Assembly (NCBI GenBank): GCA_025934995.1
Contig: JAICWC010000003.1
Coordinates: forward strand, 1-58,888
Length of the DNA: 58,888 nucleotides
Direction: 5' to 3'
Source of the DNA: Thermoleophilia bacterium
GTDB lineage: Bacteria; Actinomycetota; Thermoleophilia; Gaiellales; Gaiellaceae
The notes below the pieces were generated by a model that saw only the letters and a list, made by a program, of their open reading frames with translations, did not search any database and was not told the origin of the DNA. The position numbers and the translations under genes were made by a program. This document shows positions 4,312-40,869 of the stretch, piece by piece. How positions within the stretch are numbered: the stretch's first letter is position 1; each line of letters begins with the position of its first letter.

Positions 4312-5745
4312 GTGACCGCGACGCTCGAATCCACCAGCCCTGCGAACGGCGACGTCCTGGGCGTCGTCCCGGAGGCGGACGAGGCCGCGGTCGCGCGCGC
4401 CGTCGAGGCGGCGAAGGCCGCGTACGAGGAATGGCGGCTCGTGCCCGCGCCGAAGCGGGGCGAGATCCTCTACCGCTTTGCGCAGGTGCTCGAGCGCGAG
4501 AAGGCTGCGCTCACCGACCTGATGACGCGCGAGATGGGAAAGGTGAAGGCCGAGGCGGGCGGCGACGTCCAGGAAGCGATCGACATGAGCTACTACATGG
4601 CCGGCGAGGGCCGCCGGCTGTGGGGGCAGACGACACCGTCGGAGCTGCAGAACAAGTTCAACATGTCGGTGCGCGTCCCGGTCGGCGTCGTCGGCGCGAT
4701 CACGCCGTGGAACTTCCCGATCGCCATCCCGTCGTGGAAGCTCGCGCCCGCGCTCGTCTGCGGTAACACGGTCGTGCTGAAGCCGGCGGAGGACACGCCG
4801 CTGCTCGCGCAGCGCTTCGTCGAGCTGCTCGGCGAGGCAGGACTGCCGGACGGCGTCGTCCAGATCGTGCACGGCTACGGCGAGACCGCCGGCGCCGCCC
4901 TCGTGCGTCATCCGGACGTCCCGATCATCACGTTCACCGGCTCGCGCGAGACCGGCATCCTCGTCACGAAGGAAGCGGCCGACAACCTCAAGCACGTGCA
5001 TCTCGAGCTCGGCGGCAAGAACGCGATCATCGTCCTCGAGGACACCGACCTCGAGCTCGCGGTCGAAGGGATCGTCTGGTCCGGGTTCGGTACGTCCGGT
5101 CAGCGCTGCACGGCCGCGTCGCGCGTGATCGCGCACGCCGCCGTGTACGACGAGCTGCAGTCGCGCCTCGTTGCGCGCGCCGAGAAGATGCGCCTCGGAC
5201 CGGGATGGGAAGACGACACCGACATCGGTCCCGTGATCAACCGGACGGCGATCGAGAAGATCCACTCGTACACGAAGATCGGGCGTGACGAGGGTGCGAA
5301 GCTGCTGACCGGCGGCGAGGTCGCGACCGACGGCGACCTCGCGAAGGGTTTCTACTACAGGCCGACCGTGTTCGCCGACGTCGACGCGCGCATGCGCATC
5401 GCGCAGGAAGAGATCTTCGGCCCGACCGTCTCTCTCATCAAGGTCGCCGACTTCGACGAGGCGCTCCGCATCTCGAACGGGATCAAATACGGGCTCTCTT
5501 CGGCGATCTTCACGCAGGACGTCAACAAGGCCTTCCGCGCGATGCGCGACCTCCAGGCCGGGATCACCTACATCAACGCGGGCACGACCGGCGCCGAGGT
5601 GCACCTGCCGTTCGGCGGCACGAAGGACACGGGCAACGGCCACCGTGAAGCCGGCCAGGCCGCGCTCGACGTGTTCACCGAGTGGAAGTCGATCTACGTC
5701 GACTACTCGGGCCGGCTGCAGCGGGCCCAGATCGACAACACGTAG
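4312..5745 (+). CDS. NAD(P)-dependent aldehyde dehydrogenase
   Basis: A 477-residue member of the ALDH superfamily, full length. Landmarks in order: the cofactor-binding segment [13 protein letters not shown], the general-base Glu in ELGGKN (about residue 232), the nucleophile Cys in SGQRCTA (about 266), and EEIFGPTVS. The C-terminal [22 protein letters not shown]-type stretch resembles ALDHs of amino-acid semialdehyde metabolism, but substrate cannot be read from sequence. The GTG start has TAGATT seven bases upstream, fitting leaderless expression. No operon partner suggests a pathway: the gene stands alone between a small hypothetical gene and an envelope gene. Confidence 0.9.
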
Positions 5746-5831
5746 CCGGCAGCGCTTGTATTACTTGTAACTCGTAAAACCCCCCATTCGAGGGACAGGC
5801 ATCCGGCCGACCCGGCTCTACCGTCGGGCAC

Positions 5832-7283
5832 ATGGCCGAGCTCGTCCAGGAAATGGGGCACGACTGCCTGATCTGTCGCGCGAAGCGGGAGGCGCCGCAT
5901 CGCCTCCTGCAAGCCGCCGCGCTGTTCGGGGCGGGCTTGGCCATCACGTCGGGCGTCCTCAACCTTCGGCCGGCGCACCACCGCGCCGCCGCGGCAAAGC
6001 CTGTCGCGCCCGTCGCCGCACCGGCGCCGGCCGTCGTTCGGCGCGGAGCGGCCGCGCATCTCAGCTTCGCCAAGGCACAGGCGTCGCAGGCGGCGCGTGA
6101 CAACGCCGCCGGAACACTCGAGCGGGACGCGGCGATCGGCATGGGTCGGCCGTTCTTCGACGGCGCCGTCTTCACGACCGCCGCGCGTGTCGCGCAATGG
6201 CGGCCCCTCGTCGTGCGCGCCGCGCGGGCCGCCCGCATCGACCCGAACGTGCTCGAGGCGCTCGTCTACGTCGAGAGCTCCGGCCGGGCGGACGTCACGA
6301 ACGGTGTCACCGCCGGCCTGACGCAGCTGAAGCCGGCGGTTGCGCGCCACTTCGGCCTGCACGTCTCCGTTGCGCACGCGAACCTCTTGTCACGACGCAT
6401 CGCGCGCTCGTGGAACGCCGGACACATCCGGCAGCTGAAGCACTGGCGCGCCCGCTACGACGAGCGCTTCGCGCCCGCGAAAGAGTTGCGCGCGAGCGCG
6501 GCATACCTCGCAGCAGCGCGCACGGTGCTCGGGCACGAGGACCTCGCGATCGAGGCGTATCACGTCGGTATTCCCGCACTACCGGACACGCGCGCAACGT
6601 ACGGCGAGCTCTACTTCGGCTCGAACCGCGTCGACGACTACGCACTGAGAGTCGTGGCGGCGAAGCGCATCATGAACATGTGGCGCCATCACCGTGGCGC
6701 ACTCGCATTCGAAGCCGGCCAGCAGGCGCGAAAGAACTCGGCCGAGGAGTACCTGCATCCGCTCGCGTCCACGCACCGCTTCGGCAAACCGGCTGCGATT
6801 CTCCGCGCTGAGCAGCACCACATCCTGAGGATGATCCCCGTCGATACGCGCGAGACGCACGTGGCGATCAGCGGCACGCTCGGCGCCGAGGCGCGCCACC
6901 TCGGCCGTGCGCGCCGGCTGTACCGCGCACTCCGTCCGCAGGCGCTCGACGTCCTCATGTACATCGGGAGGCGTGTGCACGAGCTCTCCGGCGCACGGAA
7001 GCCGCTGATCCTGACGAGCGCCGTGCGTGACGACCGCTACCAGGACGTGCTGCAGCACGTCAACGTCAATGCGGCGCGGTCGTACTCGATGCACACGACG
7101 GGCTACGCGTTCGACATCGCGCGGACGTACGCGAACGCGCGCGAGGGAAGCGCCTTCCAGTACGTGCTCGACCGCCTCCAGGCGGCGAACGCGATCGCAT
7201 ACATCCGCGAGGCCGAAGCGATCCACATCGCAGTCGCCGCGGATGCACCGGCGAAGCTGAAGCTGATCCAGACGCTGAGCTAG
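5832..7283 (+). CDS. Membrane-anchored lytic transglycosylase with C-terminal M15/DUF5715-like domain
   Basis: A 483-residue envelope protein. A short N-terminal cytoplasmic piece with Cys-rich DCLIC leads to a hydrophobic anchor (about residues 27-45) and an Ala/Pro-rich linker. Residues about 130-240 form a soluble lytic transglycosylase (goose-lysozyme-like) domain with the catalytic Glu in ALVYVESSG and the following GLTQLKP motif. The C-terminal part contains SMHTTGYAFDIAR and a late EAIHIAV, which resemble the His/Asp zinc pattern of D,D-carboxypeptidase-like M15 or DUF5715 proteins. The protein would thus carry two peptidoglycan-directed domains on the outside of the membrane. A TACCGT hexamer seven bases before the ATG supports this start. 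Confidence 0.8.
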   Translation: MAELVQEMGHDCLICRAKREAPHRLLQAAALFGAGLAITSGVLNLRPAHHRAAAAKPVAPVAAPAPAVVRRGAAAHLSFAKAQASQAARDNAAGTLERDAAIGMGRPFFDGAVFTTAARVAQWRPLVVRAARAARIDPNVLEALVYVESSGRADVTNGVTAGLTQLKPAVARHFGLHVSVAHANLLSRRIARSWNAGHIRQLKHWRARYDERFAPAKELRASAAYLAAARTVLGHEDLAIEAYHVGIPALPDTRATYGELYFGSNRVDDYALRVVAAKRIMNMWRHHRGALAFEAGQQARKNSAEEYLHPLASTHRFGKPAAILRAEQHHILRMIPVDTRETHVAISGTLGAEARHLGRARRLYRALRPQALDVLMYIGRRVHELSGARKPLILTSAVRDDRYQDVLQHVNVNAARSYSMHTTGYAFDIARTYANAREGSAFQYVLDRLQAANAIAYIREAEAIHIAVAADAPAKLKLIQTLS

Positions 7284-7360
7284 CGTTTGGGACCGCGCCG
7301 CGCCATTCGTAGGCCGTTCAGCCCATTGCGCGGCGTGAGGGCGTGGGTACGCTGAATGGT

Positions 7361-8722
7361 GTGAGGGGGAGGGGCCTGCTCGCCGCCGTAGTTGCGGCAC
7401 TTGCGCTTGGCATCGCGGCGCCCGCGTCGGCCGGCGGCTGGTTGCCGCATCCCGCGGATGCGACGTGGACGTACCAGTGGACCGACAGCGTCTACAACAC
7501 GACGCCGACGAACGAGATCGTCACCGTCGACAAGAAGAGCGCCGGCTCGAGCTTCACCCTCGACTGGGCAACCGCGAACGCGGGCACGCCGGACGGGCTG
7601 CAGAGCTCGGGCAGCGTGTCGTTCCAGGAGACGAACTTCGGCATCGTCAACACCGACTGGACGAGCACGCCGCCGCCCACTGCATTTCCGATTCTCTGTG
7701 CGTCGCTCAGCTCGTGCGGCAACAGCCTTGCGAGCGCGTACTACAACCTCATCTGGGGCGCTCGCGCGCCGACGTTGTTCGAGCCGGTGTTGCAGGGGAC
7801 ATCGTGGAGCTCGACGGGGGGCGCGCAGAACGACGTCACGAGCTCGAACGACTATCTCGGCACCGAGTCGATCACCGTCCCGGCATTTACGCAGCCGGTG
7901 CTGGCCGCGAAGATCCAATCGCAAGTCACCCAGGCAGGGGCGCTCGGCGATCCGTACGGGAGCGGCGTGCGCACCGTGTGGTGGGTGTACGGCGTCGGGC
8001 CGGTGAAGATTCTCTTCCAGCATGCAGGCGGGGCCGGCGCGCCGGTGACGACGGTCGTGCTGCAGTCGACGAATCAGGTGCCGCAGACGCCTCCGGCCGA
8101 CTCCGACTATTTCCCGATGACGGTCGGCCTGCACGGCACGTATCGGTGGACGAACAAGCGGTACTTCAAGAACAAGTCGGAAGTCGAGAAGTTCAACGTC
8201 GACCAGGCATCGAACGGGACATCCGTGCTGAAGGTCTCGAGCGTTTCGGGCCCGATGAAAGTCGCCGGCGCGTATCAGTTCACCACGCGGGTCGACGGTG
8301 TCACATCCGTCGCGAGCGCGGCAAAGGCGGCATCGCTTGCGAAGTTGCCGCCGCTCGGTCCACGCGCGCTGCCCGTAGCGAAGCGCCGCCACTTCTTCAC
8401 GCCCTTCGACCTGATGACGTTCGGCTTCAACCCGGTCATCCCCGCGTATCCAGCGGCGGGCGACACCTGGTCGGCCGACCCGAACGGCCGTGACTTCGCC
8501 GTCTACGGCGTCACCGGCACCTCGCGCGTCGTCGGCATTCAGACGGTGAAAGTGCCGGCCGGGACATTCCAGGCGCTCGTCGTCTCCAGTGACTTGACGC
8601 AGCCGGGATTCAAGTTCGGATCCGGCACACGCGCGATGTGGTTCGTTGCGGGCAAGGGCCTCGTGAAGCTCGTCTTCCGGCACGGCGACGGCAGCACGTC
8701 GACCGTCGAACTCTTGAAATGA
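7361..8722 (+). CDS. Secreted protein with two duplicated beta-rich domains
   Basis: About 453 residues with a clean Sec signal peptide (MRGRGLLAAVVAALALG... cut after APASA). The mature part falls into two halves that resemble each other. Each begins with a strand of the type TWTYQWTDSVYN or TYRWTNKRYFKN and ends with a WWVYGVGPVKILFQH or MWFVAGKGLVKLVFRH motif about 170-200 residues later, so an internal duplication is likely. The fold may be LolA/DUF3108-like, but this is weak. The GTG at 7361 is preferred over one at 7343 because TACGCT lies seven bases upstream of it and it starts the signal peptide. The stop overlaps the next start as ATGA, so both are co-translated. Confidence 0.7.
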   Translation: MRGRGLLAAVVAALALGIAAPASAGGWLPHPADATWTYQWTDSVYNTTPTNEIVTVDKKSAGSSFTLDWATANAGTPDGLQSSGSVSFQETNFGIVNTDWTSTPPPTAFPILCASLSSCGNSLASAYYNLIWGARAPTLFEPVLQGTSWSSTGGAQNDVTSSNDYLGTESITVPAFTQPVLAAKIQSQVTQAGALGDPYGSGVRTVWWVYGVGPVKILFQHAGGAGAPVTTVVLQSTNQVPQTPPADSDYFPMTVGLHGTYRWTNKRYFKNKSEVEKFNVDQASNGTSVLKVSSVSGPMKVAGAYQFTTRVDGVTSVASAAKAASLAKLPPLGPRALPVAKRRHFFTPFDLMTFGFNPVIPAYPAAGDTWSADPNGRDFAVYGVTGTSRVVGIQTVKVPAGTFQALVVSSDLTQPGFKFGSGTRAMWFVAGKGLVKLVFRHGDGSTSTVELLK

Positions 8723-9639
8723 CGCTCGACAAGCGGACCGTCGTCCTCGGTGTCGCCGCGGTGGCAGCCGTGGCGGCGGCGGCCACCGCTACCGCGATCA
8801 ACCACAAATCGAACGGCAGCAAGCAGCGTCGCGAGGTGACCGCCTACATCGATGCGGTCAATGCGATCGAGAACCAGATGCACAAGCCGTTGGCGCGCGT
8901 CATGCTCGCCTACCGGGATTTCGCGGCGGCGCGGTCCGGCAGCCGTCAATCGGTGAGCGAGCTTGCCGCGGCGGCGCCGACACTCGTGAGGCTCGACCGG
9001 CGGCTCGCGGCGCTTCCCGCTCCGCCCGAGGCCAAGAAGCTCCGTGCCGGGCTCGTCCGGCTGGTCGGAGAGCAGGCGGCCGTGACGCGCGAGGTTCAGC
9101 GGCTGGCGGCGTTCGCGCCGCACTACTCGGCAGTTCTGCGCAGCGCGCACGCCGCCAGCGCGCAACTCGGCCTGGCGCTGCATGCCGTGAAGATCCCGAC
9201 GGCGCATGTGCTTCGGGGCACGAAGAGCCAGATCCTCGCTGCGCAGTCGCAGTACACGGCCGAGTCGAACGCTGCAGCGGCCGCGCAGGCAGATGCGATC
9301 GACGCCTACGACCGAACGATCACACTCGTCGTCGGCCGGCTGCGCAAGCTGCAACCGCCGGCGTCCCTCGTACCCACGTATCGCGCGCAGCTACGCAGCT
9401 TGCGAGACGCCGCCGCCGCCGGAACGCGGCTCGCGAACGAGTTGCGGAAGCCCGATCGCGCACGCGTGCCTGCACTCGGCCGGCGGTTCACGATTGCGTC
9501 GCGCGAAGCAGGGACGCTCGTCGTGCAACGCCGGGCGATTGCAGCGATTCGCGCGTACAACGCGCGTGCTCGCGCCATCTCGTCGAGCTCCGCCGACGTC
9601 GAGCGTGAGCTCGCACGCCTGCAAGCGAATCTCCCATAA
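8719..9639 (+). CDS. Membrane-anchored helical protein, hypothetical
   Basis: A 306-residue protein with an N-terminal membrane segment (about residues 8-27, Ala/Val-rich) and an extracytoplasmic, almost entirely helical remainder rich in Ala, Arg, Leu and Gln, probably antiparallel coiled coils. A pattern of two similar helical halves seems present (each has a QPPASL/LPAPPEAKKLR-type turn) but I could not verify it. The ATG overlaps the stop of the upstream secreted-protein gene (ATGA), so the two are coupled. It lies directly before the giant surface-protein gene, separated by a promoter region. No family recognised. Confidence 0.65.
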   Translation: MTLDKRTVVLGVAAVAAVAAAATATAINHKSNGSKQRREVTAYIDAVNAIENQMHKPLARVMLAYRDFAAARSGSRQSVSELAAAAPTLVRLDRRLAALPAPPEAKKLRAGLVRLVGEQAAVTREVQRLAAFAPHYSAVLRSAHAASAQLGLALHAVKIPTAHVLRGTKSQILAAQSQYTAESNAAAAAQADAIDAYDRTITLVVGRLRKLQPPASLVPTYRAQLRSLRDAAAAGTRLANELRKPDRARVPALGRRFTIASREAGTLVVQRRAIAAIRAYNARARAISSSSADVERELARLQANLP

Positions 9640-9745: not shown

Positions 9746-12700
9746 GTGGGGAACGGATACGCCGCGGTTGCCGCGGCGAATCCATACGGGTTGGTGGCGC
9801 TGCGCTCGCGCGGCGTCAAGTACTACTGGGCCGGTCTCGGTCTGGTGGTGCTCGTGGCGCTGTACGCCGCGCCGATCGCGGCCGTCTTCAAGCAGGCGGC
9901 GATTCCCGCGCCGACGACGGCGCTTCCGAACCTCGCGGTTCCGAACTTCTCCATCCCACTCCTCCGTGTTCCCAAGCTGCACGCAGTCGCGCCGCTTCCT
10001 CCGCTCGCGAAGACGCGAGCGCATACGCCGGCGGCGTCGAGCTTCACGCGCACGAACAAGCCGACCGTCCGCAAGGCGGTCCGGCACAAGGTGCCCGTCG
10101 TCAGCGACACGCACACGCAGGTCGCGAGCAGCAAGACATCTTCCACAAGTCACAAGCCGACCGATCCTTTCGCGTCGGCTCCGGTCGTGAGTGACCAGGT
10201 CGGCACGCCGATCGCTCTCCCTTCGACCACGGCTGCTCCGACGACCGCCGGTACGACGCAGACGACGCCCTCGGACACGACGAACGCGGCAACGACCGCG
10301 GGCGCGACGCCGAGCAGCGACCCGAACGCTGCACAGGCGACCACACCTGCGCCGGCCGCCACACCGACGACGCCGACGACGCCGACCGACCCGACGAACG
10401 CAGGCACGACGGATCCCTATGCGGCACCGACCACGCAGTATCCCGACACGCTGGCCCCGGCCACGACGGCTTCGTCGGCAGCGACGACCGACGCCGCCGT
10501 GACGACGCCGGTTCGCGCCACGCACGCGCTGCAGCTCTTCAGCGTCAGCGACACGTCGTCAGGTTCCGCCGATCAGCCGATCACGAGCAGCGACACGCAG
10601 ACGCAGGCGAGCACCCAGACGCAGACGCAGGCGGGCACCCAGACGCAGACCCAGGCGAGCAGCCAGCCCGACACGCAGAGCCTGACGGAGACACAGACGA
10701 TCGGCTCGAGCGACACCGGGACCGTCGATCCGACCATCACCGAGACGCAGACGCAGACGCAAACGCAGACGGGGACGCAGACGGGCACGACGGGCGACTC
10801 CGGCACGACGACGGTCGCCGGCGCGGACACGAGCAGCAGCGCGACGACGACGACGATCTCCGGCACGACCGGCGACAACACCGGCACCGTCTCCGCTACC
10901 GGCAACGACGACTCGACGTCGGCGACGGCGAGCGGCACCAGTGGGACCGGGACGGAGACAGGCGGCACGGACGGCACGACGACGAGCACGACGTCGACCG
11001 GCACGAGCGCCGATTCCTCGTCCACGACGGCTTCGGCCGGGACGACGGCCACGCCCGATCCGGTCACGGGCACCGCGAGCGGCACGGCGCCGCCGGTCGG
11101 CAGCGCGATCATCGGCTCCGCCGGTGGCAGCGTGATCAGCGCAGACGGCCTCGCGACGATCACGTTTGCGGCCGGCGCGCTCAGCAGCGACGTCACCGTT
11201 TCGATCACACCGTCGGTTGGTCCGCTCGGTACGCAGTACGACCTGAAGGCCGTTGACGCAGCCGGTCAGCTTGTCGAGAGCTTCGCGAGTGCGCCGGTCC
11301 TGACGATCCACTACACGGGCTCCGAGCCCGGGACGATCTACTACGTCGATCCGACCAACGGCCCCGTTGCGGTCCCATCGACGATCGACACGGCCGCGCA
11401 CACGATCAGCGCAGCCCTGCCGCACTTCAGCGACTACGCCGCGGGAGACGCGATCACTCTCGTCTTCACGGCGCCTACGTCGCCGGCGCTCGACACACCG
11501 CTTGCGATCACGCCGGTCGTGACCAATAACGCCGGCGGTGACACTCCGAACGGGGTTGTCGTGAGCCTCGTCAACAATTCCGGATTCGGGCAACTGAATA
11601 CGACAACCTGCACCGTTGACGCGACTGGTAATTGTCCTACGGCCGCTGTGACCTTCACGAGCAGCGAGCCCGGCCACGTCGTGATCGCCGGTACAGCGGG
11701 GCAGACGGTCACCGCGACTGCCACCGACATTTTCGACATCGTCGGCACCTGGACGCTAACCGTCACGAGCTCGGCCGTCGTCACCGCCGATGCGACCAAC
11801 CTGAACGTGACGATCGACGGCGGATCGGTTCAGAGCAAGCCGCTCGCGGACGTGACCGGCCTGACGCTCGATGCATCGGCGGCGACCGGCGCGACGACCT
11901 TCACGCTCTCCGGTATCCGGCCGAACTTCACCAAGGCGATCACGCTGAAGGCGGGATCGGGCGCCGACACGTTCACGCTCGGCGACGGCTTCGGTACCGT
12001 CACGATCACCGGCGGCGCGGCCGACGACTCCGTCGCGATCAAGTCCGCGGGCGCGACCCTCCACTACAACGGCTCGACCTTCACGAACGGGCTCGGTGAC
12101 ACGGCGACGTTCAGCGGCATGAAGCTGGCGGTCACGGGCGATTCGTCGAGCCAGACGCTCGAAGTCGGCGGCTTCTCCGGCGGCAGCACGACGCTGACGG
12201 GCGGCGGCGGCACCGATACCTACAAGCTCGACAACAACTTCGGAACGGTCTCGATCGCCGGCGCCGCCGAGGACACGGTCGATCTCACCTCGAACAGCGG
12301 CACGCTCGGCTTCGACGGGTCGGCGATCACCGACGGGACCACGATGAACGACAAGGCGACGCTCGGGGCGACGGCGCCGTCCCACATCGACGTGACCGTG
12401 CCACCGGTCGCGATCATCAAGAACGTCGTCGACGCGCTCCAGCAGTCGTTCGAGAAGCTGGACAAGGGGATCAACGGACTCAACGTCCCGATCCCGCTGC
12501 TCGACACGAGCGTCTCGCCGAACATCGGCGCGCTCACCTCGATCGACGCCTTCTTCACAGGCCTTCAGACGAAGGTCGACCCGATCGCGCAGGGGTTGAC
12601 TCTCAAGAGCGCGGTGACCGCGTTGGCCGGCGCGATCAGCGGCCTCGACCCGTCGAACCCCTTCCACGCGCTGAAGCTCGACACGGCCTACGCGAGCGGC

Positions 12701-21700: not shown

Positions 21701-24700
21701 TCCGTCTCTCCGGACGACGTCCACGTGATGCTGATGAACAACAACCGCTCGCAGCATTGCGATTTCGGCGCCTCGACCTGCAGCGTCGTCAACATCTTCA
21801 ACGCGCAGGAGATCGAGCTCGACATGCGGCTCGGGAAGACGTTCACGTACACCGCGCCTGCGATCGACCTCGACCTCGGTATCCCCGCGCTCGGTCTCGA
21901 CGCGAGCTTCACGCCGCAGGTGACCCTGTCGTTCGGCTTGAACTTCGGTTTCGGCGTCGACACGAACACGGGCTTCTACTTCGTCACCGACGGCGGCACG
22001 CCCGGCTCGAGCGACGACGCGAAGAAGGACGACACCGAGCTGAGCGTCGGGGCCCTGGTCACGCTCTCGAGCGTCGACTGCCCGAGCGGAACGGTGAACC
22101 GAGCCCAGGCGGACGGGCGGCTCCTCGTTCTCGCACTGCACATCACGGACGGCACCGACCTGAACGGCGACGGCTCCGTCAACGTCGCCTGCTCGAACGG
22201 CGGCGCCGACACGAATGTCGACCCGCAGACGATGGAGATCAGCTCCGTGTACTTCCACGGCAACGTCGACATCGTGACCCCGGGCACCGCGCACCCCGGC
22301 GAGCTGACGCTCGATCAGCTCTTCGGCAGCGGTCTGTCGGAGATCGTGAAGCCCTCGATCACGGGCGGCGCGATGCTCCGCGCGGACGCGGTCGTCGACT
22401 TCAGCACCCTCGGTCCCGACTACGCGAACATCCTGCCGGCGATCTCGACGCGCATCCTCGTCGACTTCGGCCTCTCGTGGGATACCGAGAACGGATTCCA
22501 AATCTCGGCGCCCCAGGTCGTGTTCGGCGACATCACGCTCGACCTCGGCTCGTTCATCTCGAACTTCGCGGGACCGATCCTCAACCAGATCAAGCAGATC
22601 CTCGACCCGCTCGCCTGGCTGATCGGGCCCGACGGCTTCCTCAACAAGCGGATCCCGCTGCTTTCGGACCTCGCGGGTCACACGATCACGGGCGCCGACC
22701 TCGTCACTTTCTTCGATCCCACCGACGGGCCGAAGGTCAAGGCGTTCCTCGACTTCGTGCTGCAGCTCTACAACCTGATCGACCTCGTCCAGCAGACCGC
22801 CGGCGAGGGCGACGCGAAGCTGGACTTCGGCGACATCCTGCTTGCGCAGGGCAGCGGCCCGGCGATCCCGGACGTGGGTGACTGGTCCTTCTTCGACCGG
22901 CCGCTCGACGTCGGCCTCGGGTCAGGCATCGACATCACCCGGATGTCGAGCCTCGGCACGCTGCACATCACCGACCAAAACGTCGCGAACCCGCTTCCGA
23001 ACGGCGCCTTCGGGCCGAACACGAACAAGTTCACGGCTGGAATCACAGGCTCGGCCGCCTTCGAGTTCCCGTTCATCCAGAAGCCGTCGTCGCTGATTCA
23101 GCTCCTGTTCGGCAAGCCGGTGACCTTGGTCGAGATCACGCTGCCCGAGCTCGGCTTCAACTTCACCTACCGGCAGGAGTTCCCGATCATCGGGCCGCTC
23201 GTGGGCACCTTCGAGGGCGGGATCAGCGCCAAGCTGGATCTGCGGCTGGGCTACGACACGACCGGTCTATCCGAGTTCCTCGCGAACAAGAACCCGAGCT
23301 CGCTGCTCGACGGCTTCTTCTTCGACACGAAGGACGCCCAGGGCCATCCGTTGCCCGTGGCGCAGCTCACCGCGCAGATCGCGGTCGGTGCGGCGCTCGA
23401 CCTTGGACTGATCGAGGCCGGCGTCGAGGGCGGAATCCGGGCGAAGATCAATTTCAACTGGGACGATCTCGACGGCGACACCAAGGTTCGCCTCGACGAG
23501 CTGAAGTCGAACATCCTCGCCAACGGCGGCGATCCGCTCGCCGTGTTCGACATCTCCGGCGAGCTCGATCTGTTCCTGGACGCCTACGTGAAGATCAACC
23601 TCGTCCTCACGTCGATCACGCTGACCTACGAGTTCCCGACGATCACGCTGTTCAAGTTCTCCGTGGACTTCACGCGGCCGTCGTTCCTCGGCAATGTCAA
23701 CAGCGGCACGCTGACGCTCGCGATCGGGCCCAGCTCGAAGAACAGGCTGCAGGGCAACATCAACGACATCGCCGAGACGATCCATGTCAAGGGCAGCGGC
23801 GGCGGCGACGTCTTCGTCTGGTCGGATCAGTTCGGCCGCGGCGAGGACAACGCGCAGGAGTTCACGGGCGTCAAGGCAATCGTCGCGGACGGCGGCGCAG
23901 GCGACGACATCATCGACCTGAGCCAGCTCAACGACAGCAGCATCACGGTGATCATCCACGGCGGCGACGGCAACGACACGATCACGGGCCCCGCCAATTC
24001 GGCCTGCACGCAGAACTGCGACGGTCCGGCCTCCGGCAAGGTGTACGCACAGCTCTACGGCGACGGCGGTAACGACACGCTGACGGGATCGAGCGGCAAC
24101 CGCGACCTTCTCCAGGGCGGCGACGGCGACGACACGCTCACGGGCGGCAGCGGGCCGACCGCGTTGCAGGGCGGCGCCGGCAAGGACACGCTCAACCAGG
24201 GCTCGGCGGGCGGCCAGACGCTCGACGGCGGCAGCGGGAACGACACGCTCAACGGGAGCAGCGCCGGCAGCGCCGACTTCATCGGCCTGAACTCGGCGAG
24301 CGTCGTCACGATCTCGGGTAGCGGCCTGGGCGGGACGCTCGACCTGAGCGGGCGGCGTGAGCAGCTCACCTTCTGGTTGACGGCCGGGGAGATCGTGGTG
24401 GGTTGGGGCCAGCAGAGGGACACGAACACACCGACTGGAATCAGCGACATCAAGGGCGTCGCCGTCCAGGGCTACGACCACATGATCATCGTCACCAACC
24501 CGTCCCTGATCGGGAAGATCCTCGGCGGCGACGGAGCCGACACGTTCAACGTCTTCGCGACGACCGTCCACACCCTCCTCGACGGGCAGGGCGGCAACGA
24601 CACCTACGACTTCTTCGGGTTCGGCAGCGGCTCGGCCTCGATCGACGTGCAGGTCAGCGACAGCGGCAATCCGTGGGACTCCGGCGACCAGATCGTCATC

Positions 24701-38585: not shown

Positions 38586-38659
38586 GCGGATGTAGCTCAG
38601 TTGGCTAGAGCGTCTGCTTGCCATGCAGAAGGTCGTGGGTTCGAGTCCCATCATCCGCT
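38586..38659 (+). tRNA. tRNA-Gly (anticodon GCC)
   Basis: A full cloverleaf: 7-bp acceptor stem GCGGATG/CATCCGC, D arm with AGCTCAG, anticodon stem TCTGC/GCAGA enclosing TTGCCAT (anticodon GCC), T arm GTGGG-TTCGAGT-CCCAT, discriminator T. CCA is not encoded. The 3' half serves as the attachment site of the small element that follows. Confidence 0.95.
38616..38659 (+). repeat. Attachment-site direct repeat, copy inside tRNA-Gly
   Basis: 44 bp covering the tRNA from within the anticodon stem to the discriminator base, identical to 40794-40837. It forms the element's tRNA-side junction. Confidence 0.85.
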
Positions 38660-38668
38660 CTAGTGAAG

Positions 38669-38690
38669 CCCCCGGTAATCGGGGGTTTTT
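38669..38690 (+). terminator. Rho-independent terminator after tRNA-Gly
   Basis: CCCCCG, loop GTAAT, CGGGGG, then five T. It lies inside the element, so it replaces the original terminator that was displaced to the far side. Confidence 0.85.
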
Positions 38691-38700
38691 CTTTGCTCTA

Positions 38701-39180
38701 GGCCGCTGCCGGAACCTCAGGCGAGAGCGGTAGAGCCTCGTTAGTGCCCATTCGTGCCCATTCGATGGCCGCGTCGAAGGCTTCGCGCTGCGCCTTCGCC
38801 AGCCGATCGCGTCGCTTCGATGCCTGCGCGTAGGCGCGGAGCGTGAAGCGCGGGTCCTCATGGCCGAGCTGGTCGGCCGTGTAGCACATGTCGTCGCCGC
38901 AGACGCAGCGGAGGCTTGCGTACGTCCGGCGGAGCCCGTGGAACGTGAGCGCGTCGATCGGCGCGATCTCTGCCGCCTCGAGCTTCACGTTCGCAGCCTC
39001 AACGGCCTTCGCCAGAACGTCGCGGCGCAGGTTCGAAGGGTTGTGCTTCTTTCCCGTTGATGTGCTGACGACGTAGTCGCCGGCGGCAGCGTGCTTCGTC
39101 TCCATCCGCGCGACGTACACGCAGCTGATCAAGCCCGAGGAGACGGTGTGGCTCGCGGGCGCTCGGGCCGTGCGAGTCAT
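38701..39180 (-). pseudogene. Tyrosine recombinase (integrase), C-terminal remnant
   Basis: Only the last third of a phage-type integrase is present. The catalytic HGLRRTYASL (His-x-x-Arg box), QLGHEDPRFTLRAYAQ (second His box with the Tyr nucleophile) and the TGKKHNPSNLRRDVLAKAV stretch before them are intact. The N-terminal arm-binding and core-binding domains and the first catalytic Arg are missing. Recognisable homology begins around 39100. Upstream of that the frame stays open to a stop at 39241-39243 but no longer looks like integrase, so a deletion joint probably lies near 39100-39240. The ATG at 39180 is nominal. The orientation, with its end next to the tRNA, fits the element. Confidence 0.8.
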
Positions 39181-39801
39181 CGACGTCGTCGAGACGCCGG
39201 AGACGGAACGGTACGCGGGGTTGCTTCGCGTCGAAACGACCTAGCTCCGCATTCAGTGGCGCCGCTTTTGAGGGCGTGCGGATGGATGGAACCAGCCCCA
39301 TTCCTCGGCGAGTAGCCGCCATCGTAGGCCCTCGGCAAAGGCGCTCCGTAGCGCGGCCCCGAACGCATTTAGCGCATTCACGCATCCTGTCGCCGCCTTG
39401 AAGATGCCCGTCGCAGTTGTAAGCGCGGCTGCCACGACCGACGGCCAGCCGAACGGACCAAGCGTGTGGACCAGCCAGAAGACGGTCGCGCCAAGAATCA
39501 GCGTCATGCATCGCTTATCGGACTCGGGCTACGCGCGGCAGGACTACCCGATTGAGGGATCCTGCTTCCGGAGATGTATCGGTACCTCGGGCGGGTGACC
39601 TTGAGGGGATTCCGATCCCTCGAATGGGGATTCTTCCGACTCGGCCGCTAGTCCGTTTGAGCCATCTAGCGTGCCTCGAGTCCCCTGCGTAGCGTTCATC
39701 GGTGCCGGCCCGGAGTGTCAGCGCCCGGCGTTGGGATCACCTCGGGCCGGCCGTGGGCTCGACAGGAAGATCAGCCGCCCCCGCTGCTAACAATCGGCAG
39801 C
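39181..39801. other. Low-coding interior of the tRNA element
   Basis: A 620-base stretch with only one possible small gene (39253-39507, minus). Base composition is more AT-rich and codon-position bias is weak, unlike the rest of the window. Short inverted elements occur (GAGGGATC at about 39554 and GATCCCTC about 60 bases on). I see no RNA gene or insertion sequence here; it looks like decayed element DNA. Confidence 0.5.
39253..39507 (-). CDS. Possible small membrane protein of the element
   Basis: An 84-residue frame starting at ATG 39507. One or two hydrophobic segments fill the first half (MTLILGATVFWLVHTLGPFG and a following Ala-rich helix) and the tail is basic. The layout recalls small phage holin-like or accessory membrane proteins, but there is no specific match and no clear ribosome-binding site. 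It may be a chance frame in decayed DNA. Confidence 0.35.
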   Translation of the reverse strand: MTLILGATVFWLVHTLGPFGWPSVVAAALTTATGIFKAATGCVNALNAFGAALRSAFAEGLRWRLLAEEWGWFHPSARPQKRRH

Positions 39802-40134
39802 ATGTCGATGCCGTTTCTTGTCCAGTACGACGCCGATGCCGTGCAAGAACTGGCGGCCCTCACCTCTAAGGAGGAGAAGAGAGCGTTATTCAACGCGGTC
39901 GACAAGCTAAGGATGCTTGGCCCGCGCCTCGTCCCGCCGCACGTCAAGACGCTCAAGGGCGAGGCCGGGATCATGGAACTCCGTCCAAAGCAAGGTCGAA
40001 CACACGTCAGAGCCTTCTTTCGAAGAACCGGAAACGACTACGTCGTCCTTTCGCTCTGCATCAAGCCGGACAAGGCCGATGCCGAGGCGGCGATCGCGGC
40101 TGCCCAAGAACGAGTCTCCCGCTACGATGCTTGA
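39802..40134 (+). CDS. higB: HigB/RelE-superfamily toxin (phage-derived Gp49-like)
   Basis: A 110-residue protein of the RelE/ParE superfamily, in the HigB (Gp49-like) branch. It begins PFLVQYDADAVQEL, continues with ALTSKEEKRALFNAVDKLRMLGPRL, then PPHVKTLKGEAGIMELRPKQGRTHVRAFF, the conserved core in which basic residues contact mRNA at the ribosome, and ends with a helix of the type DKADAEAAIAAAQERVSRY. Toxins of this branch are ribosome-dependent mRNA endonucleases. ATG 39802 is chosen because the family starts at this point; ATG 39808 is possible. It is followed after 90 bases by the antitoxin gene, the toxin-first order typical of HigBA modules. Confidence 0.8.
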   Translation: MSMPFLVQYDADAVQELAALTSKEEKRALFNAVDKLRMLGPRLVPPHVKTLKGEAGIMELRPKQGRTHVRAFFRRTGNDYVVLSLCIKPDKADAEAAIAAAQERVSRYDA

Positions 40135-40138
40135 TAAC

Positions 40139-40184
40139 TCAAGGGTTATGATTACCCTTGACGGGGGATAACCGCAGGGTTATC
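40139..40184. promoter_or_regulatory. Two operator dyads and promoter between toxin and antitoxin genes
   Basis: Dyad 1: TCAAGGGT, seven bases, ACCCTTGA (40139-40161). Dyad 2: GATAACC, four bases, GGTTATC (40167-40184). Both contain the word GGGTTAT. A TTGACG (40158-40163) followed after 17 bases by TATCGT (40181-40186) forms a promoter that both dyads overlap. This suggests the antitoxin has its own autoregulated promoter. Confidence 0.6.
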
Positions 40185-40224
40185 GTCTGAGCCAACCGCT
40201 AGTTCAGGAAGGAGCTCGCGCCAA

Positions 40225-40629
40225 ATGTCCCCACGCCTCAAGAGCCACGGCACCATCGTTGCCGAGGAGATCAACAGCGATCCCGGCTTTCGCGAGGAAT
40301 GGGATAAGACTGCCCTGGGACGTCTGGTCGCGGCCGAACTGATCGGTTACCGAGCCGACCACAAGCTTTCTCAGCGCGCGTTGGGCGAGCGCTTGGGATG
40401 CAGCCAGCCGTACGTCGCCAAACTTGAGTCGGGCGAGCACAATCCTGACATCGAAACGCTAGTGGGTATCTCGAGGGCGCTCGGCATCGAGTTCATGATC
40501 GACATTGCGCCGGCCGCGGCTCGTCCCCGGCTGGTCACCAAGGCGGTGGCTGCGCGACACCAGAGACATCAGCGCGACGGTGTCTCGGTCGTGATGGGCG
40601 CCACCGCTCGGGCAAGACGCGCCGCCTAG
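40225..40629 (+). CDS. higA: HigA-like antitoxin, XRE-family helix-turn-helix
   Basis: A 134-residue DNA-binding protein. Residues about 38-90 form a lambda-Cro/XRE helix-turn-helix (LVAAELIGYRADHKLSQRAL, LGCSQPYVAKLESGEHNPDIETL), preceded by an N-terminal helix region usual for antitoxins that bind their toxin with a flexible end. The C-terminal tail is basic and probably disordered. A GGAAGGAG ribosome-binding site lies nine bases before the ATG. It pairs with the HigB-like toxin upstream; the two inverted repeats in between are its probable operators. Confidence 0.82.
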   Translation: MSPRLKSHGTIVAEEINSDPGFREEWDKTALGRLVAAELIGYRADHKLSQRALGERLGCSQPYVAKLESGEHNPDIETLVGISRALGIEFMIDIAPAAARPRLVTKAVAARHQRHQRDGVSVVMGATARARRAA

Positions 40630-40710
40630 ACCCTCCCCCTTCTGCTTTGGGCACAAGTGTCGGCTAGTGCCCAAACCGGATGGAATCGCCTGCAAACGTG
40701 CTGTATCCGC

Positions 40711-40730
40711 GAGACGTGTCGACACGTCTC
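40711..40730. repeat. 20-bp perfect palindrome inside the element
   Basis: GAGACGTGTC followed directly by its reverse complement GACACGTCTC, with no spacer. It lies 80 bases after the antitoxin gene and 64 bases before the far attachment repeat. It could be a protein-binding site for recombination or regulation; function unknown. Confidence 0.6.
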
Positions 40731-40793
40731 AAGTCCGGCGATACGTAGCGTTTTAGTTGGCGTAGCGGACTACCGGACTCGTACCCACGACCC

Positions 40794-40837
40794 GCTTGCC
40801 ATGCAGAAGGTCGTGGGTTCGAGTCCCATCATCCGCT
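40794..40837 (+). repeat. Attachment-site direct repeat, distal copy
   Basis: Identical over 44 bp to the 3' half of tRNA-Gly at 38616-38659. Being followed by its own terminator hairpin, it is most likely the original tRNA 3' end displaced by integration. Confidence 0.85.
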
Positions 40838-40843
40838 TCACCA

Positions 40844-40869
40844 AAAGGACCTGCTAACGCGGGTCTTTT
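40844..40869 (+). terminator. Displaced tRNA-Gly terminator
   Basis: AAAGGACC, ten-base loop, GGTCTTTT: an 8-bp stem with one G-U pair ending in a T run. It lies right after the distal attachment repeat, where it has no gene to terminate; it presumably belonged to the tRNA before integration. Confidence 0.6.

Follow-up and report, generated by a model that had tools for sequence, protein, structure and literature searches.

A 2.2-kb segment located behind a tRNA-Gly(GCC) gene of a soil actinobacterium is very probably a CIME-like remnant, still bounded by attL and attR, of a larger phage- or satellite-type element that integrated at this gene and was then internally deleted. The window, by which we mean the whole stretch of 58,888 nucleotides analysed here, lies on contig C33 of genome G000, a draft of 2.85 Mb in 200 contigs that is 88% complete. 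ARAGORN placed the tRNA-Gly gene at 38586–38660 on the forward strand, and an identical copy of this 75-bp gene is present in most of the same-family genomes examined. The preliminary description reported an exact duplication of the tRNA 3′ half 2.2 kb away, and this was confirmed: the proximal copy (38616–38659) and the distal copy (40794–40837), both on the forward strand and thus in direct orientation, are identical over 44 bp with zero mismatches at a spacing of 2178 bp. These two are the only exact copies of the tRNA-Gly 3′ half in G000, where the next-best tRNA-like match to it reaches 84%. The 44-bp exact match, in register with the tRNA, is not a chance event. Joining the flanks with the segment removed gives an intact tRNA-Gly, and the G+C content of the segment is 63%, versus 69% in the flanks. 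After the tRNA, the segment contains, in this order, an integrase remnant, a 49-codon fragment, a stretch with no recognizable genes, and the genes for a toxin and an antitoxin. No relaxase or phage gene family was matched by the segment ORFs tested in a Pfam-type profile search. A candidate 84-aa ORF (39253–39507, reverse strand) has neither a family match nor a relative in the fetched loci.

Elsewhere in the window, a single forward-strand ORF of 9535 codons (9206–37813) occupies nearly half of the total length. Its product, judged by eye, resembles a giant, repeat-rich secreted protein, parts of which are RTX-like and others Calx-beta-like. ARAGORN also called two tRNAs on the reverse strand inside this ORF, one of undefined identity (tRNA-???, 10306–10396) and a tRNA-Trp (22177–22270), both of which are probably false positives.

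The integrase is encoded by a 160-aa ORF on the reverse strand (38698–39180), reading toward the tRNA. Alignment with the full-length integrases of genomes G078, G080, and G018, together with a partial match to PF00589, identifies it as a tyrosine integrase remnant that retains the C-terminal approximately 140 aa. The match to PF00589 begins only at profile position 88 (E 1e-4, under the gathering score), and the identity with the last approximately 140 aa of the full-length relatives is 54–57%. The homology stops near 39105–39135. The HxxR, second His, and Tyr motifs are present in the remnant, and the alignment shows that the GLRxGE block carrying the first catalytic Arg is absent. The earlier statement that the integrase is cut down to its catalytic end is thus right, with the qualification that this end lacks the block containing the first catalytic Arg. 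Given the known mechanism of tyrosine recombinases, the loss of this region means that excision by the remnant is not expected. Tail-to-tail with the integrase remnant lies a putative 49-codon gene fragment (39095–39244, forward strand), which would mark the deletion junction and gave no Pfam or PHROG match. Searches for integrase homologs among viral contigs and phage records returned none, and a search of G000 for a helper integrase, using the remnant as the query, found only the remnant.

Another remnant of the same integrase subfamily lies at the same tRNA-Gly in genome G091 (locus L138, 9571–10053), where it is fused to a different ORF. The remnants of G091 and the window come from two different genera; truncated at almost the same codon, they have different partners, and no shared junction sequence was seen between them. 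The G091 fusion partner gave no PHROG match, and its assignment as a terminase was unsupported. Integrase relatives of the same subfamily in three further genomes (G029, G025, and G018; loci L010, L008, and L009) adjoin tRNA-Val in two cases and tRNA-Gln in one, and two of the three are fragmented.

The tRNA-Gly(GCC) gene is an integration hot spot that has been used repeatedly in related bacteria. When 61 genomes were searched at the nucleotide level, nearly every member of the same genus and the same family had the junction between an RNase H-like gene and tRNA-Gly, and the flank order of a 110-aa conserved ORF, the RNase H-like gene, and tRNA-Gly is common to nearly all relatives. A second copy of the 3′ half shares the contig of the tRNA in G015 (42 bp, 1.9 kb away), G021 (43 bp, 3.4 kb away), G005 (44 bp, 11.5 kb away), and G080 (10.5 kb away). 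Additional copies on separate contigs were found in G078, G109, G112, and G001, and displaced halves in G026 and G086; most other genomes contain a single copy. Neither an integrase nor a recognizable toxin-antitoxin (TA) pair was found in the remnants of G015 and G021. In G001 (locus L052, contig C130), two tRNA-Gly 3′ halves with similar left flanks occur at 2889 and 4216, 1.3 kb apart, which suggests tandem remnants of related elements. In G015 (locus L049, 3096–3133), a fragment resembling a different tRNA, TTGCAGGAGGTCGCAGGTTC, lies to the left of the distal tRNA-Gly half.

A complete element is present in G080 (PKYN01000006.1, an Actinomycetota MAG; locus L099): it extends over 10.5 kb from att to att, and its integrase is intact and belongs to the same subfamily as that of the window. 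The element encodes a D5 primase and a match to the large terminase; its matches to an excisionase and to a small terminase are weak. In G078, an intact integrase, 54–57% identical over the remnant, lies beside the same tRNA. The 11.5-kb element of G005 encodes a MobF relaxase and an integrase different from the subfamily of the window; therefore, unrelated elements use the one tRNA-Gly site. In this element (locus L050, contig C26, 893–12487), the relaxase comprises 1008 aa, the unrelated integrase is intact, and a 1693-aa protein appears RHS-repeat-like by eye. Derivation of the window element from the MobF element was rejected, as the integrases are too different (41% identity over 61 aa, E 3e-4).

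Synteny points to the empty site. In the window, a penicillin-binding protein gene follows the tRNA at a distance of 4.1 kb; in G006, G007, and G010, whose tRNA is single-copy, it is found 2.9–5.8 kb downstream. The genomes compared are all of different species and include no two strains of which one has the segment and the other lacks it. A nucleotide search with the downstream flank in 61 relatives, intended as proof of the empty site, gave trivial matches only, so that the empty site is suggested by gene order only. Two comparisons proposed in the preliminary description, for related genomes whose tRNA-Gly has no second copy and for complete elements at the same tRNA, were both fruitful, the latter through G080 with its intact integrase of the same subfamily. 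The two outcomes named there as contrary, namely the same arrangement in relatives without a duplication and a tRNA fragment unrelated to the integrase, were not encountered.

The architecture of the att sites is in line with integration at the anticodon loop. The repeat blocks shared in G015, G005, and G021 start at tRNA position 32–33, which is in the anticodon loop, and strand exchange would have occurred in the loop TTGCCAT (38618–38624). On the element side of the distal site, the follow-up added an arm that the preliminary description lacked: at 40757–40792 (no strand assigned), the tRNA 3′ half recurs imperfectly in inverted orientation, with 81% identity over 36 nt, a match equaled in none of 500 shuffles. 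Among 14 distal or orphan copies tested, the arm was significant only in G000 and G078 (0/500 shuffles also in the latter), and the idea that it is a general trait of distal sites was discarded. The distal half with the same inverted arm is on a contig of G078 other than that of its tRNA-linked integrase, and this genome thus carries both the arm and a related intact integrase. The arm is probably a core-type integrase site on the element side.

A terminator-like hairpin with a T run is present 3′ of both 44-bp copies, at 38665–38689 (z −3.8) and at approximately 40844–40869 (z −4.4), both on the forward strand. From the topology, the hairpin after the regenerated tRNA would be an intrinsic terminator that arrived with the element, and the hairpin behind the distal copy would be the old terminator of the host tRNA. 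An intrinsic terminator follows 9 of 11 tRNA-Gly genes in genomes having a second half, versus 17 of 40 single-copy ones, a weak statistical difference (Fisher p 0.04) among genomes that are not independent. The displaced host terminator and the new terminator of the preliminary description are supported by the topology, with these weak statistics; the ancestry of the distal hairpin itself could not be traced, since no close nucleotide match to the downstream DNA was found in relatives.

These observations can be accommodated by the following course of events, whose order we infer, as we do the action of the integrase on these att sites. The larger parent element would have been integrative, most probably a prophage or a phage-satellite-like island, with its own tyrosine integrase and an attP consisting of the tRNA-Gly(GCC) 3′ half and a terminator. 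Recombination in the anticodon loop would have joined the host 5′ half to the 3′ half and terminator of the element, such that the regenerated tRNA stayed functional, and would have pushed the original 3′ half and terminator of the host to the far end. An internal deletion would then have removed most of the element and fused the 3′ end of the integrase with an unrelated fragment. What remained would be a 2.2-kb remnant of the cis-mobilizable type that has retained its two att repeats and, near the distal att, an intact TA pair. A phage- or satellite-type parent is likely from the integrase subfamily held in common with G080; no phage genes are left within the window element, and the phage origin is drawn from the relatives. 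The elements of the relatives and the truncated integrase support the earlier view that the segment is what is left of a larger island at tRNA-Gly.

The TA pair adjoining the distal att is intact in both genes, and its persistence agrees with the preliminary description. The toxin gene (39802–40134, forward strand, 110 aa) encodes a Gp49/HigB-like protein that matches PF05973 (Gp49; DUF891) with 43.7 bits (cut-off 23.9), and the antitoxin gene (40225–40629, forward strand, 134 aa) encodes an HTH_3 protein that matches PF01381 with 49.5 bits (cut-off 23); both pass the gathering scores. The order of toxin first and antitoxin second is conserved in the homologs. On the forward strand of the spacer (40134–40183) are two operator-like dyads, ATAACnnnnGGGTTAT (40134–40149 and 40168–40183), for which 0 are expected in shuffles of the window, and they overlap a promoter-like TTGACG-17-TATCGT (40158–40186). 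The homologous spacers carry the same dyad, and this recurrence suggests that the pair may be autoregulated. Toxin homologs were found in 20 of 399 sampled genomes of the class, G000 included, and an antitoxin search of 396 genomes of the phylum gave matches solely in members of this class; against viral contigs and plasmids, the antitoxin gave only weak matches (30–39% identity). The closest pair, in G005 (contig C107), shows 70–72% identity. The dN/dS values against it are low, approximately 0.14 for the toxin and 0.10 for the antitoxin, rough figures that cover both lineages at a dS near saturation. The pair is presumed to be active and under selection.

The same TA family repeatedly adjoins tRNA genes or displaced 3′ halves, almost always in the same orientation. 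Six of 35 loci of the family have a same-strand tRNA T-arm within 1 kb downstream of the antitoxin, with none on the opposite strand; within 4 kb upstream, the T-arm is on the same strand in seven loci and on the opposite strand in one. The sample behind these counts is small, includes some close relatives that are not independent, and contains several loci cut by contig ends. The clearest parallel to the window locus is G344 (locus L195), in which the TA pair lies between tRNA-His (5434–5507) and a 45-bp stretch that repeats the tRNA-His 3′ half exactly (8856–8900), and no integrase was found in the segment. This 3.4-kb segment (5434–8900) also has PRiA4_ORF3 and DUF6398 genes. In G320, the pair has tRNA-Gly upstream and a 29-bp tRNA-Pro 3′ half downstream; in G325, tRNA-Pro and its terminator are followed by the pair and then by a C-terminal integrase fragment; and in G226, the pair adjoins an intact integrase and a tRNA-Pro half. 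A tRNA half also lies beside the pair of G005 on contig C107, and no copy of the matching full tRNA was found in that draft. The association between this TA family and tRNA genes, which the preliminary description lacks, is the sole part of the present results that goes somewhat beyond what is known. One could extend it to the idea that this lineage-specific Gp49/HTH pair travels specifically with tRNA-targeted elements, keeps a fixed orientation beside an att end whichever integrase and tRNA are used, and survives as a minimal att-bounded cassette still movable by related integrases; we regard this extension as improbable.

Why the pair outlived the rest of the element allows several explanations. 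The segment may persist because the TA kills or stalls cells that lose it, an explanation that we consider possible but doubtful. It is compatible with the intact, conserved genes and the autoregulation-like dyads, and with the presence of the same family in the tRNA-linked remnants of G344 (tRNA-His, no integrase found) and G325 (tRNA-Pro, integrase fragment); TA-based maintenance is, moreover, shown for the SXT ICE (PMC2654960). However, the remnants of G015 and G021 persist at the same tRNA with no integrase found and no TA recognized, and in proposing that the island is kept by addiction the preliminary description goes further than this comparison allows. Addiction would also scarcely be needed, because a dead integrase makes loss of the segment by excision unlikely, and the TA may persist for phage defense, for another benefit, or since this end of the element escaped deletion.

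The pair and its att sites might instead constitute a functional cassette, mobilizable in cis and still moved in trans by related integrases. The identity of both 44-bp repeats, the intact integrases of the same subfamily in related species, and the recurrence of the TA bounded by or beside tRNA halves at tRNA-Gly, tRNA-His, and tRNA-Pro are in its favor, but G000 yielded no helper integrase, the sole match to the remnant being the remnant itself, and an identical copy at two sites or in two species was not found. We accordingly think this rather unlikely. Far less credible still is that the distal repeat has nothing to do with the integrase and is a stray piece of tRNA arising from duplication or an assembly artifact. 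In its favor are the small size of the repeat (44 bp), the frequent occurrence of tRNA fragments at hot spots, and the draft state of the assembly, and a short repeat could in principle favor misassembly. Against this, the orientation and 3′ position are correct, the crossover is in the anticodon loop, which also holds for G005 and G080, the inverted arm is shared with the integrase-carrying G078, and conserved neighbors are found on both sides on one contig. We thus favor the reading of the segment as a decayed, att-bounded island.

As such, the window locus belongs to a well-known class of decayed tRNA islands and is ordinary on its own. Islander defines an island as lying between an intact tDNA and a displaced same-orientation 3′ fragment, with the anticodon-loop crossover (class A) as one of its two main classes (PMC4383910). 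The window shares the intact tRNA, the displaced 3′ fragment bounding the segment, and the crossover; however, Islander also asks for an intact tyrosine integrase, and the approximately 140 C-terminal aa left in the window make it a remnant, not a putatively active island. CIMEs have lost the integration and transfer genes and kept both att sites, and decay with accretion at tRNA genes has been described (IME review, PMC5704250). The window likewise keeps attL and attR (44 bp, identical), has a truncated integrase and, among the ORFs tested, no relaxase match, and occupies a hot spot with other elements, but its parent looks phage- or satellite-like and not conjugative; we call it CIME-like from its sequence alone. 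Grounded or cryptic prophages keep a tRNA att repeat, such as 47 bp of argU in DLP12 (PMC6379469). The window shares with them the broken integrase, the eroded content, and the kept repeat, and differs in that only 2.2 kb is left, with no recognizable phage structural gene; the phage genes expected of a prophage or satellite remnant are absent. The TA pair resembles HigBA-type type II systems in that a predicted toxin of the RelE/HigB superfamily precedes the HTH antitoxin and operator-like dyads lie at the putative antitoxin promoter, but the toxin matches Gp49 (DUF891) and, in the sampled genomes, occurs only in this class of Actinomycetota. SXT is a complete, excisable ICE of 100 kb for which the effect of MosAT was measured (PMC2654960); the window likewise has a predicted TA on an integrated element.

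The hot spot at tRNA-Gly(GCC) presents complete, eroded, and single-copy states within one family of little-studied Actinomycetota, in public genomes. Such a series makes it possible to study how integrated elements decay and which of their parts survive. As one TA family occurs with tRNA-bounded remnants at varied tRNAs and with varied integrases, why a TA outlives the elements that carry it can be tested by comparison.
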